From Candidatus Desulfarcum epimagneticum (GTDB lineage: Bacteria; Desulfobacterota; Desulfobacteria; Desulfobacterales; CR-1), in contig CAACVI010000001.1 of assembly GCA_900659855.1 (NCBI GenBank), positions 239,179 through 303,178 on the forward strand: 64,000 nt of DNA. Direction: 5' to 3'. Position numbers and translations under genes: made by a program. Of this stretch, positions 5,945-26,944 are shown piece by piece; position 1 is the stretch's first letter, and each line of letters starts with the position of its first letter. Below the pieces are notes generated by a model. It did no database searches. It saw only the letters and a program-made list of their open reading frames with translations, and was not told the origin of the DNA.

Positions 5945-6071
5945 GACGGCGTCGTAAAAAATTCGATCTGCAAGGCTTGACGCTTATTTTTAATTGAGGC
6001 GATACATACAGTATGCCTCAATTAAAAATAAGCGTCGTAACGCCGCGGATCGGATTTTTTACGACGCCGTC
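5945..6071. repeat. Palindromic repeat family A, copy 2
   Basis: A 127-bp palindrome with outer arms GACGGCGTCGTAAAAAAT and ATTTTTTACGACGCCGTC, and inner arms CTTATTTTTAATTGAGGC and its complement. Its end overlaps the dnaN stop codon. Here it separates two co-directional genes (dnaN and gyrB), so if it terminates transcription it would uncouple them. Confidence 0.85.
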
Positions 6072-7191
6072 ATACTTTCATGGGCATGATGACGCTCAAA
6101 TAATCAATATCCTCGTCACCTTCAATGACGCACGGATTTTTGTCATCCGCTATATTCAAATAAACGTCCCGGCTTCTCATCACATTGATCGTGTCGATGA
6201 AATACCTGGGGTTAAACGCGATCTGAACGGGGTCGCCTTCAAATTCAATGGGCGTGTCCTCCCTGGATTCCCCGATCTCCGGATTGGTGTTTTCAATGGA
6301 AAAAAGGCCGTCTTTAAACTGAAAAAAAACGCTTCTGTATTTGGAATTGGAAAAAATCGACATTCTTTTGAGCATCATCAAAAAAGGCTCTTTTCTGATT
6401 TTCACCTTCTTTAAATTTTCCTTGACCTGAATCACCGAATCAAAGTCAGGAAAATCGCCCTGCAGAAGACGGATGACGATTTTTTCGTTTTCATTTTTAA
6501 ACACCGCATGGTTGTCCTTGACCCCCGCGTGGGCCGGCCCCTGGTCTTTCAAAAATTTAAGCGCGTCGCTCAGCCCTCTTTTGGGGATGATCACCGGAGC
6601 GAAGTCATAGGGAGGCGTTTCATCTTCCCCGAAGCGATAGTCGGCCTTGGACATCCGGGTTCCGTCGGTGGACACCATCCGAAGCGCGGCCGCGCCGTCC
6701 TGATTCAAATGGGAAAAAAGAATTCCGTCCATATGGGGCCGGTTGTCATCCCTGGGGCCGATGACCACGCTTTTTTCGATCATGTCTCTGAGAAAAGAGG
6801 ATTTTATCTCAAAAAATTCAATTTTCTCAATCTCAGGCGCCAGGGGAAACTCCTCCGGGTCCTGTCCGGCGAGGCTGTAATGGACCTGGTCGTTTCCGAT
6901 CCGAATCCACCGGTTGTCAAGCTCGTTGAACCCGATGTCATCCACCGGAAAATCTTTCACAATCTCAAAGAGTTTTTTTGAATCCAGGACCATAGATCCC
7001 TCGATCTCGACCTCAGCCGGGTAAACGCCCTCAAAACCGGTCTCCGTGTCCGTGGCCTGGATGATCACGTTTGAGCCTGCGGCGTGAATCAGCGCGTTTT
7101 CCGTGATGCTTAAAGAGCTTTTCCTTGAAGTGATCCCCTGAATTTTAAATATGGCGGAGGACAGAATGTCTTTTTTTATTTTAAATTTCAT
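6070..7191 (-). CDS. dnaN: DNA polymerase III subunit beta (sliding clamp)
   Basis: A 373-residue beta clamp, the usual length for this family. Two copies form the ring that tethers the replicative polymerase to DNA and is the docking hub for mismatch repair proteins, including MutS, which is also in this window. The N-terminus (MKFKIKKDILSSAIFKIQGI) and the C-terminal PMKV ending (family consensus PMR/PMK plus a few residues) are typical, and three clamp domains fit the length. dnaA and recF, which often flank dnaN, are not next to it: upstream is a non-coding AT-rich stretch, downstream are repeats and gyrB. The TGA stop lies inside the outer arm of a palindromic repeat. Confidence 0.95.
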   Translation of the reverse strand: MKFKIKKDILSSAIFKIQGITSRKSSLSITENALIHAAGSNVIIQATDTETGFEGVYPAEVEIEGSMVLDSKKLFEIVKDFPVDDIGFNELDNRWIRIGNDQVHYSLAGQDPEEFPLAPEIEKIEFFEIKSSFLRDMIEKSVVIGPRDDNRPHMDGILFSHLNQDGAAALRMVSTDGTRMSKADYRFGEDETPPYDFAPVIIPKRGLSDALKFLKDQGPAHAGVKDNHAVFKNENEKIVIRLLQGDFPDFDSVIQVKENLKKVKIRKEPFLMMLKRMSIFSNSKYRSVFFQFKDGLFSIENTNPEIGESREDTPIEFEGDPVQIAFNPRYFIDTINVMRSRDVYLNIADDKNPCVIEGDEDIDYLSVIMPMKV

Positions 7192-9841: not shown

Positions 9842-10930
9842 TCAAACCAAAGGAGAGGGGAAAAAGATTCGGGAGTAAAGGGACAGGGCGTGGCGGTCCG
9901 TCATGCTGGCGATGAGATCGCACACCACCTTCTCTTTGGGCCGGCCGGATATGGCCGAGGCCTCTATTTCAATATACGTCAACTCATTTTCAAGGGCGTC
10001 GTTGTTTTCCAGAAAATAAAAATAAAGGTCGGAGACGATTTTTTTCGCCTTTAAAAACTCCCGGTGCACACGCGGCGACCGGTACACGTTGTCATAAAGA
10101 AAAACCCGAAGGGTTTTCATGGCGGAATAGACCTCGTCGCCGATGCGAAGCGACAGCCGGCCGTCTTCCAGTTCGCTTAAAAAGATCAAACTGTGGATCA
10201 TGGTGGTGGCCCTTTCGGAATGGGTTTTTCCCAAAATTTCCACGCATGAGCCCGGTATCTGGTTCTGGCGGATCACCCCGCTTCTCTCCGCGTCCTCCAG
10301 GTCGTGGTTCAAATAGGCCATGATATCGGCGATTCTCACCAGCATGCCCTCATAGGTCGCGGCCAGCTTGGCGGGATCGTCCGGAATGATTTTTCCATAC
10401 CCCTTTGAATGCTTTAAAATGCCGTCTCTCACCTCAAAGGACAGATTGAGCCCCCGCCCCTTTCTTTCCAGCGCGTCCACCACCCTCAGGCTCTGCCGGC
10501 TGTGGGAAAACCCCTCGGGGTTGATCTCCTGGAGCGCCGCCTCGCCGCTGTGACCAAAGGGCGGATGCCCCAGGTCGTGGGCCAGGGCCACGGCCTCGGC
10601 CAAATCTTCGTTGAGACGCATGGAGCGGGCCATGAGCCGGGCCATCTGGGACACCTCCAGGGTGTGGGTCAGCCGGGTCCGGTACATGTCCCCCATGGGG
10701 GAGAGAAACACCTGGGTTTTGTATTTCAGGCGCCTGAAAGCGTTGGAATACACAATTCTGTCCCGGTCGGTCTGAAACGCGGTTCTCACCGGGCACGGGT
10801 CTTCCTTTTTTTCCCTGCCCCTGGATTGGGCGCTCAGGCATCCGGCCGGGGACATGAAACTTTCTTCACGTTTTTCAAAGGCCTCTCGGATGGATGTGGG
10901 CCGGGCGTCGTTTTTTTTATCCGGATTCAT
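9842..10930 (-). CDS. dgt: dGTP triphosphohydrolase-like HD protein
   Basis: A 362-residue HD-superfamily protein of the dGTPase family, which hydrolyses dGTP or other dNTPs to the nucleoside and triphosphate. The family entry motif DRDRIVYSNAFRRLKYKTQV is present (residues 55-74). The metal ligands follow as RLTHTLEV (His89) and AHDLGHPPFGHSGE (His118, Asp119, with His122 and His127). Downstream, RIADIMAYLNHDLEDA supplies the last aspartate. The length fits the short dGTPase-like type 2 proteins rather than the roughly 500-residue E. coli enzyme. A second paralogue lies at 21846-23027. It is first in a likely operon with two YkgJ genes. Confidence 0.88.
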   Translation of the reverse strand: MNPDKKNDARPTSIREAFEKREESFMSPAGCLSAQSRGREKKEDPCPVRTAFQTDRDRIVYSNAFRRLKYKTQVFLSPMGDMYRTRLTHTLEVSQMARLMARSMRLNEDLAEAVALAHDLGHPPFGHSGEAALQEINPEGFSHSRQSLRVVDALERKGRGLNLSFEVRDGILKHSKGYGKIIPDDPAKLAATYEGMLVRIADIMAYLNHDLEDAERSGVIRQNQIPGSCVEILGKTHSERATTMIHSLIFLSELEDGRLSLRIGDEVYSAMKTLRVFLYDNVYRSPRVHREFLKAKKIVSDLYFYFLENNDALENELTYIEIEASAISGRPKEKVVCDLIASMTDRHALSLYSRIFFPSPLV

Positions 10931-21839: not shown

Positions 21840-21845
21840 GGTTTG

Positions 21846-23027
21846 ATGGAAGTCGATCTGGATTTAAAAAGCCATTTGGATTTAAGAAAGATCCGGGAGG
21901 GGCTTTTTGAGCGGGAAAGGCGCGTCCTGTCGCCCCTGGCGGCCCTGGGAGAGTCCGCTGTCCGGAGAAATCCCTGGGTCCGGGACGAATCGGATTACCG
22001 GCCGCCCTTTTCCGTGGACGCCGACCGGATTCTGCACTCCCTGGCCTATGCCCGCTACATCGACAAAACCCAGGTGTTTTACTTAGTGAAAAACGACCAC
22101 ATCACCCACCGGGTTTTGCATGTGCAGCTGGTTTCCAAAATCGCCCGGACCATCGGGCGCTTTCTCAACCTCAACGAGGACCTCATCGAGGCCGTCTCTT
22201 TGGGCCACGACATCGGTCATCCCCCCTTCGGGCATGACGGGGAATCGTTTTTGTCCGGGATATGCAGGCGGCGCGGCGTCGGGTATTTTCACCACAACAT
22301 CCAAAGCGTTCAGTTCCTGGACCGGGTGGAGAACCGGGGCGCCGGATGGAACCTTTGCCTTCAGACCCTAGACGGCATTGTCTGCCACGACGGGGAGATT
22401 CACAACCGGCGCCTGGAGCCGGAAAGGGGCAAAACCTTTCAAAAACTGGACGAGGACATCCGTTTAAAGAAAAAAGACCGTGAAAAAAAGCTGGTTCCCA
22501 TGACCCTGGAGGGCTGCGCGGCGAGAATGGCCGACACCATCAGCTATGTGGGCCGGGATGCGGAGGACGCCATACGCCTGGGCGTGATCCGAAGATCGGA
22601 CCTTCCGGCCGAATCGGTCCGGGTCCTGGGAGACACCAACGGAACCATTGTGTTTCACCTGGTGACGGACATCATCCGAAACAGCGTGGGAAAGGGCCAT
22701 ATCGCCTTTGGAGCCGAATGCTCCGAGGCCCTGGAGCGGCTGAAAAAATTCAATATGGAGCGCATTTATTTTCACAAAGAGGCGAAAAAACATTTCACCG
22801 CCATCCGGGACCTTTATGAGATTTTGTTTGACCGGATTTTGGAAGACATTGAAAAGCGAGACCGGTCCGCGCCTGTTTATTCCGAATTTCTGGACGGCCT
22901 TTCAGCAAACTACATCGACGCCCACAGGCCTGAGGAGATCGTCCGGGACTTCATCGCCGGTATGACGGACCGTTATTTTTTAAAGCAGTTTCCCGAAAAC
23001 ATGCGGCCCGGCCCGGTTTTCCAGTGA
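21846..23027 (+). CDS. Second dGTP triphosphohydrolase-like HD protein
   Basis: A paralogue of the protein at 9842-10930, about 393 residues. The start is the ATG at 21846 or the TTG just before it. The dGTPase entry motif is VDADRILHSLAYARYIDKTQV. The HD ligands are THRVLHV (His89 counted from the TTG) and LGHDIGHPPFGHDGE (His122, Asp123, His126, His131). A late segment CAARMADTISYVGRDAEDA carries the final aspartate. Divergence from the first copy is considerable (FYLVKNDHITHR in place of FLSPMGDMYRTRLTH), so the substrate preference or regulator may differ. It is in a run of closely spaced genes starting at rpoH. Confidence 0.85.
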   Translation: MEVDLDLKSHLDLRKIREGLFERERRVLSPLAALGESAVRRNPWVRDESDYRPPFSVDADRILHSLAYARYIDKTQVFYLVKNDHITHRVLHVQLVSKIARTIGRFLNLNEDLIEAVSLGHDIGHPPFGHDGESFLSGICRRRGVGYFHHNIQSVQFLDRVENRGAGWNLCLQTLDGIVCHDGEIHNRRLEPERGKTFQKLDEDIRLKKKDREKKLVPMTLEGCAARMADTISYVGRDAEDAIRLGVIRRSDLPAESVRVLGDTNGTIVFHLVTDIIRNSVGKGHIAFGAECSEALERLKKFNMERIYFHKEAKKHFTAIRDLYEILFDRILEDIEKRDRSAPVYSEFLDGLSANYIDAHRPEEIVRDFIAGMTDRYFLKQFPENMRPGPVFQ

Positions 23028-24327: not shown

Positions 24328-25092
24328 ATGACCTCCCCAAAGATCACCCCCATGATCCGGCAGTACCTGTCCATTAAGGAGAAGCACGCCGACGCCATAC
24401 TGTTTTACCGCATGGGGGATTTTTATGAGATGTTTTTCGAAGACGCCCACACCGCCTCGGGAATTCTGGACATCGCCCTGACCGCCCGGAACAAAAAAGA
24501 GGCGGTCCCGGTCCCCATGTGCGGGGTGCCCGTAAAGGCGGCCAAAGGATACATCGCCAGGCTCATCGAAAACGGCCGGAAGGTGGCCATCTGCGAGCAG
24601 GTGGAAGACCCGGCCCAGGCCAAAGGCCTGGTCAGGCGGGAGGTCACCCGGGTGATATCCCCGGGGATGATCGTCGAGGACGAGCTGCTTGACGAAAAAA
24701 GCGACAACTACCTTCTGGCGCTGGACCGACAAGGCGCCCGCGTGGGGATGTCTTTTCTGGATATTTCCACCGGGGATTTCCGGGTTTCGGAAACCGATGA
24801 CGAAAACGCCGTTTTTGAGGAGATCCTCCGGGTGTCGCCCAGCGAAATTCTTCTAAGCGAGGACATGAGGGACGACTCCCTTTATTCCCGTCTTTCCCGG
24901 CTCATGCCTGAAAAACGCGCCTCGTTTTTAAACGGCCGCGCCTTTGATTATGAGCGGTCCCGCCGCCGCCTTCTGGCGCTTTTCAAAACCCGGTCCCTGG
25001 AAGGATTCGGATGCGGGGACATGAAAGCCGGCGTGGGCGCCGCGGGCGCGCTGGTTCATTACATCCATGAAACCCAGGGGGGGGGCCGTTGA
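24328..25092 (+). CDS. mutS: MutS, N-terminal part (frameshifted)
   Basis: The first 254 codons of DNA mismatch repair protein MutS. The mismatch-recognition domain is intact, including the Phe-x-Glu wedge in GDFYEMFFED (Phe32, Glu34), GVPVKAAKGYIARLIENG, and the connector domain start. The frame then enters a run of nine G (25077-25085) and ends at TGA after HETQGGGR. With eight G the frame would continue as HETQGGAVEHF and join the following open frame to give an 871-residue MutS, a normal length. As written, this fragment alone cannot repair mismatches. See the matching C-terminal part. Confidence 0.9.
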   Translation: MTSPKITPMIRQYLSIKEKHADAILFYRMGDFYEMFFEDAHTASGILDIALTARNKKEAVPVPMCGVPVKAAKGYIARLIENGRKVAICEQVEDPAQAKGLVRREVTRVISPGMIVEDELLDEKSDNYLLALDRQGARVGMSFLDISTGDFRVSETDDENAVFEEILRVSPSEILLSEDMRDDSLYSRLSRLMPEKRASFLNGRAFDYERSRRRLLALFKTRSLEGFGCGDMKAGVGAAGALVHYIHETQGGGR

Positions 25093-26944
25093 GCACTTCA
25101 CCCGGATCACGCCCCACACGCTCAACGACTGCCTGGTTTTAGACGATGTGACCTGCCGGAACCTGGAGCTGGTGGTCAACACACGGACCGGACGCCGCTC
25201 CGGGACCCTTTTAAGCGTCATGGACCGGACCGCGACCCCCATGGGCGCGCGCCTGATCAAAAAGTGGATCCGGCGCCCCCTGACAGACCCCGGGGAGATC
25301 GCCCTTCGCCATGACGCGGTGGAAGAGGCGCTGGAAAACGTCCGCGCGCGGTCTGAAATCAGGGCGGCGTTAAAAAACATGCGCGATTTTGAGCGTCTGG
25401 GCAGCCGGATTTCCATGGGGCACGCCAACGCGCGGGACCTTCTGGCCCTGAAGAACTCCATCATGGCCCTGCCCGACGTTTTGTCCCGGACGTCTCTTTT
25501 TTCCGCGGCTCTTTTTGAATTTCCCCATGACCCGGCCGAGCTTTACAGGCTGGCGGACCTCATCGATTCGGCCATACGGGAAGACGCGCCCCCGGTCACC
25601 CACCAGGGAAACATGATCCGGCCCGGTCACGATGAGGAGCTGGACGAGCTGGACAAAATCAGCCGGGACGGAAAAGCGTGGCTGCTTGAGCTGGAGTCCC
25701 GGGAAAAGGAAAAGACCGGCGCCGCGTCCCTGAAGGTTCGTTTTAACAAGGTGTTCGGGTATTACATCGAGATATCCAAGGGCCAGTCCAGACTCGCGCC
25801 TCCCCACTACATTCGCAAACAGACCCTGGTCAACGCCGAGCGATACATCACCGACGAGCTGAAAACATTCGAGTCCAAGGCCCTGGGCGCCCAGGAGCGA
25901 AAAGCGGCCCTGGAGCGCGATATTTTTGAGCGCGTTCGAAAAGAGGCGGCGGCCCGAAACCGGCATATTTTTAAAGCCGCCCGTTTCCTGGCCCGGATCG
26001 ACTGTCTTGCCGGACTGGCCGAGGCGGCGGCCCAAAACGAATACACCCGGCCGGAGGTCAACGGGGGCGGGGTCATGGACATCCGGGCCGGCCGCCATCC
26101 GGTGGTGGAAAAAACCCTGTCCGGCGAGCGCTTTGTGCCCAACGACATCCGGCTGGACGACGAAAAGAGCCAGGTTCTGGTCATCACCGGCCCCAACATG
26201 GCCGGGAAATCCACCATTCTCCGGCAGACCGCGCTCATGGTCATCATGGCCCAGGCCGGGTCCTTTGTCCCGGCGGACCGGGCCCTGATATCGGCCACCG
26301 ACCGGATTTTCACCCGGGTGGGGGCGCTGGACAACCTGTCCGCCGGCCAGAGCACCTTCATGGTGGAGATGGAGGAGACGGCCAACATCATCCACAACGC
26401 CACGCCCAAAAGCCTGGTGGTCATGGACGAGATCGGCAGGGGCACCAGCACCTTCGACGGCATCTCCATCGCCTGGGCCGTGGCGGAGCGTCTTCACGAT
26501 CTGGACGGAAAGGGGGTCAAAACCCTTTTCGCCACCCATTATCACGAACTCACGGAGCTTTCGGCCCATCGCCCCAGGATTCAAAATCACAACATCGCGG
26601 TGAAGGAGTGGAATGACGGGATCATTTTTTTAAGAAAACTGGTCAGGGGCGGGGCCAACCGAAGCTACGGCATACAGGTGGCCAAACTCGCGGGCCTTCC
26701 CCCCGGGGTCATCCAAAAAGCCGAGCGGATTCTTTTCCGCATTGAAAAAGACCGGGAAACGGCGGGCGTCGGAGCGCCGCCGCCGGGGGATTTGGACGAG
26801 CCCGGCCCCGGGGACCTTTTTCAGAATCCTGAAATTCACGCGGCCATGGAAAGGCTGAAATCCTTGGACATCTCCCGACTGACTCCCATAGAGGCTTTGA
26901 ATCGTCTGGATGAGCTGCAAAAGGAACTTAAACGTTTGACATGA
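25067..26944 (+). CDS. mutS: MutS, C-terminal part (frameshifted)
   Basis: The rest of MutS in the other frame: the lever and clamp domains (LDDVTCRNLELVVN, VFGYYIEISKGQ), the ATPase with Walker A GPNMAGKSTILRQ, the Walker B region LVVMDEIGRGTSTFDGI, and the signature ATHYHELTEL. The C-terminus (PIEALNRLDELQKELK) is the normal MutS end. The ATG at 25067 lies inside the overlap and is probably not a true start. The natural product is expected to arise only from a version of the gene with eight G, or by slippage. The stop overlaps the start of the amidase gene by ATGA. Confidence 0.9.
   Translation: MKPRGGAVEHFTRITPHTLNDCLVLDDVTCRNLELVVNTRTGRRSGTLLSVMDRTATPMGARLIKKWIRRPLTDPGEIALRHDAVEEALENVRARSEIRAALKNMRDFERLGSRISMGHANARDLLALKNSIMALPDVLSRTSLFSAALFEFPHDPAELYRLADLIDSAIREDAPPVTHQGNMIRPGHDEELDELDKISRDGKAWLLELESREKEKTGAASLKVRFNKVFGYYIEISKGQSRLAPPHYIRKQTLVNAERYITDELKTFESKALGAQERKAALERDIFERVRKEAAARNRHIFKAARFLARIDCLAGLAEAAAQNEYTRPEVNGGGVMDIRAGRHPVVEKTLSGERFVPNDIRLDDEKSQVLVITGPNMAGKSTILRQTALMVIMAQAGSFVPADRALISATDRIFTRVGALDNLSAGQSTFMVEMEETANIIHNATPKSLVVMDEIGRGTSTFDGISIAWAVAERLHDLDGKGVKTLFATHYHELTELSAHRPRIQNHNIAVKEWNDGIIFLRKLVRGGANRSYGIQVAKLAGLPPGVIQKAERILFRIEKDRETAGVGAPPPGDLDEPGPGDLFQNPEIHAAMERLKSLDISRLTPIEALNRLDELQKELKRLT
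25077..25085 (+). repeat. Nine-G tract at the mutS frameshift
   Basis: A run of nine G after ACCCA. Loss of one G restores a single MutS frame. Such tracts are prone to slipped-strand change and also to sequencing error. Confidence 0.95.

Follow-up and report, generated by a model that had tools for sequence, protein, structure and literature searches.

The window, a stretch of 64,000 nucleotides from Candidatus Desulfarcum epimagneticum, carries on its plus strand a mutS gene that is divided between two overlapping reading frames. The first (24328..25092; 254 residues) encodes domains I and II of MutS, including the mismatch-reading motif GDFYEMF (PF01624, positions 1-113 of 113; PF05188, positions 1-125 of 133), and covers positions 2-238 of the MutS profile (NCBIfam NF003810); the second (25067..26944; 625 residues) encodes domains III, IV, and V, with the motifs GPNMAGKST, DEIGRGTST, and ATHYHEL, and covers positions 239-792. 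The two profile segments abut exactly, with zero residues lost between the halves; all five MutS1 Pfam domains are present across both frames, and the mismatch-reading and ATPase motifs are intact. The gene departs from the single continuous reading frame of MutS1 proteins at one point, 25077-25085, where the assembly has a run of nine G. The 5' frame passes through this run and meets a TGA directly after it, ending at 25092, and the 3' frame is open from upstream of the run to its natural stop at 26944; changing the length of the run by one base joins them into a protein that aligns without a gap at the site against 45 relatives. The preliminary description, which had reported the nine G, the two frames adding up to a full MutS, and their joining by a single base, is thus borne out, the run being read directly from the sequence; dnaN, which it had also placed in the window, lies at 6070-7191 on the minus strand. 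A separate downstream gene beginning at the ATG at 25067 is unlikely, as no ribosome-binding site is evident before this codon and the two profile segments meet exactly.

Upstream of mutS are genes for a LapA-like membrane protein and a conserved hypothetical protein (PRK04334 type), together with a dGTPase-like gene; downstream is an AmiC-type amidase. The window holds two distinct dGTPase-family genes (9842-10930, minus strand; 21843-23027, plus strand), of which the second falls short of the curated equivalog cut-offs and may have another function. A dispersed intergenic element with the inverted arms TTATTTTTAATTGAGGCA and TGCCTCAATTAAAAATAA and the associated motifs AATTCGATATACAAGGCG and AGATCGGATTTTTTACGA occurs at 2475-2560 and 6014-6100, and at many sites genome-wide, with tens of copies in 1.65 Mb.

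A mutS match was found in 39 of 40 genomes (the organism's own and others of the same order, the named relatives belonging to the Desulfobacteraceae and other Desulfobacterales), nearly all as single open frames of about 870-900 residues. At the site of the run the relatives mostly encode Glu-Thr-Gln-Lys-Gln, and none of those examined has a G run there; a conserved programmed frameshift is rejected on these grounds, and the presence of a G run in mutS is probably genuine and lineage-specific. Read across the break, the window MutS keeps 216 of 218 near-invariant positions, which is mid-range among the 45 relatives; together with the gap-free alignment, this argues that mutS is not an old pseudogene, and a decayed copy is likewise rejected, since the conserved residues are retained. 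Apart from the break, mutS is under normal constraint and is unlikely to be long dead. No other gene of the 3.26 Mb genome has a MutS ATPase domain, a search for this domain having returned no second MutS copy; MutL is present as an intact open frame.

As a string, the G9 of mutS is unexceptional; it stands out by its effect, a frame break in a conserved gene. Matches to G8 or longer are fewer in the window than expected from dinucleotide shuffles (4 against 10.3), and the genome has 49 G9 nine-mer matches, a density per Mb among the highest of the 40 genomes searched, and about 32 separate G/C runs of at least nine, mostly intergenic. Runs in coding sequence were judged by codon usage, by reading the flanking frames, and with family profiles, those of eight G/C and those of A/T in about 1.65 Mb of the 3.26 Mb, read as stretches. 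All 18 coding G/C runs of eight in this sample are in frame, with none flagged; at a length of exactly nine, about eight of the nine coding runs keep the frame, with mutS as the exception; and among those of at least ten the frame is broken in five of the seven judged (a run at C1:111970, which adjoins masked sequence, being excluded from the count), as expected for random lengths (2/3). By comparison, 265 of about 284 A/T runs of at least eight in the sample are in frame; the 19 flagged, in part tested against profiles, look like gene borders: nearly all have a start codon near the preceding stop or lie at a gene start, and those read by eye separate different genes. No frame break was identified among the A/T runs. 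Homopolymer errors throughout the genome, as in raw long reads, are rejected on account of these in-frame A/T runs. The genome is 99.7% complete, and its sampled 1.65 Mb, with A/T runs in frame, shows no broad decay.

The five genes broken at G/C runs of 10-11 have conserved domains that continue across the break in another frame. In rfbB, for dTDP-glucose 4,6-dehydratase, a G11 (C1:13891-13901) separates positions 1-263 from 265-320 of TIGR01181; in dctM, a C10 (C23:124709-124718) separates positions 1-363 from 356-405 of TIGR00786; in a periplasmic binding protein of the Peripla_BP_6 type, a C11 (C49:53064-53074) separates profile positions 4-185 from 192-327; and in a large outer-membrane or surface protein of 1354 residues, a G11 (C23:313120-313130) leaves the beta-barrel end in the other frame. 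The fifth, aspS (C45:226915-228670, minus strand), is broken at a C10 (C45:227088), where positions 1-530 and 524-585 of TIGR00459 meet in different frames. The off-frame direction is shared by five of the six broken genes, mutS included, six cases being too few for significance.

For the reading of these breaks, aspS serves as an internal control. Aspartyl-tRNA synthetase is essential to bacterial life, and this is the sole gene for it; no alternative AspRS was found in the genome, the other matches being LysRS, AsnRS, and EpmA. The break removes the last 60 or so residues, including GIAFGFDRL (GIAFGFDRLAML), which we take to be catalytic motif 3 of the class II enzymes, required for ATP binding. 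Since the gene must work, living cells do not carry the consensus length at the C10, barring a bridge in expression; here, then, a break of the same type as in mutS lies in a gene that has to function, as a homopolymer error would have it. Long G/C runs are unreliable as a class in this assembly: with aspS and four other conserved-domain genes broken at G/C runs of 10-11, the length of such a run is not to be taken as genotype.

These considerations make it likely that mutS is intact in the living organism and that its frame break is an error of the consensus in the length of the G run. The run would belong to the class of frame-breaking G/C runs, its true length being one base off, and the error would have entered during amplification, sequencing, or assembly; because the sole essential aspS is broken at a similar run, the break in mutS is probably a miscount rather than a mutation-rate switch. 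Of the two readings that the preliminary description had left side by side, homopolymer error and a switchable mutator, the first is thus favored by aspS and the four other genes broken at G/C 10-11, and for the second no positive support emerged, the run being absent from all relatives examined. Against a miscount, the proportion of exact-nine runs in frame implies a low error rate at nine, so that mutS could be a genuine exception. Slippage of G/C runs occurs in living cells as well, and length dependence alone cannot tell artefact from real instability.

Such slippage is the basis of the best-surviving alternative, which we nevertheless consider unlikely: that the run varies in the population, with slipped-strand replication errors toggling MutS as a reversible mutator. 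Within a mismatch-repair gene, a G/C run of eight or nine is liable to slippage, the genome is rich in G9, mutS is otherwise undamaged, and a frame-shifting repeat within a coding or promoter region, one hallmark of slipped-strand switching, is found here exactly at the frame change. Loss of MutS would moreover destabilize other G/C runs, accounting for the other frame breaks, in vivo slippage also rises with length, and the other exact-nine runs are mostly in frame. In Salmonella, comparable switches have been shown or proposed for mutL, through its repeats, and for mutS, through an A7 run (PMC2955026). However, aspS cannot be off in most living cells, so that its C10 call at least is not genotype, and retention of the repeat, a second hallmark of such switching, is not seen in the relatives examined: they have mostly Gln-Lys-Gln codons there.

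The genome also contains magnetochrome motifs (PF18509) at C23:28103-28423, in an open frame of 507 residues; they are absent from all 14 control genomes, and the organism is, going by these motifs, probably magnetotactic. Two G9 runs (34677 and 37976) lie less than 10 kb from this gene. Another G9, near the start of an HdrA-like gene (C1:about 452,400-453,200), is read in frame as Gly-Gly-Gly; this gene has an in-frame TGA in NDCAM*IISPKLVEVGRH, probably encoding selenocysteine. It is doubtful, though conceivable, that a magnetotactic and possibly protist-associated sulfate reducer toggles its mismatch repair through slippage of the mutS run, with G/C runs in genes for sugar synthesis, transport, and surface proteins co-varying in the off state.

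Symbionts frequently lose repair genes, and the magnetochrome gene would allow for a host-bound magnetotactic bacterium; a real, recent, and fixed frameshift in mutS, marking a mutator lineage as in some host-restricted symbionts, is nonetheless improbable, as the gene has no other damage, with all but two of the 218 conserved residues in place, MutL is intact, and the sampled half of the genome gives no sign of broad decay. Least probable is a real break that gene expression bypasses, either through slippage of transcription at the G run or through a +1 shift of the ribosome there; this would rescue aspS as well, and poly-A slippage is known to restore frames in insect endosymbionts. Yet the homopolymer insertions in E. 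coli and Buchnera are all in A/T runs, G/C runs being judged not prone to slippage (PMC5574713), and the site is not conserved in relatives.

A switch in mismatch repair is not a new idea, having been described in Salmonella, where slipped-strand switching acts on a 6-bp repeat in mutL and has been proposed for the A7 of mutS (PMC2955026). There too, a short repeat in a mismatch-repair gene decides by its copy number whether the protein is produced; in Salmonella, however, the measurements covered alternative alleles as well as mutation rates, whereas the G run described here is known from a single consensus. If true, a mutS switch would be a reversible mutator of a kind rarely seen outside the enterobacteria. 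The pilus genes of Bifidobacterium likewise consist of two frames that meet at a G run of uncertain annotated length; these are surface genes, unlike mutS, and their length variants were counted by error-corrected deep sequencing, which found that the distribution of measured lengths can depart from the annotation and led to a call for caution (PMC9187656). In this genome, G/C runs of at least nine are unfit for calling genes broken or phase variable. A further parallel is with the singleton frameshifts of the GeneTack survey of prokaryotic genomes, which were ascribed to sequencing error (PMC3711429) and share with mutS an isolated frame transition, no clustered homologues, and a match to full-length homologues. 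To these the present case adds an essential gene whose frame is lost, in the same assembly, at a run of similar kind, a simple internal control for claims of phase variation.
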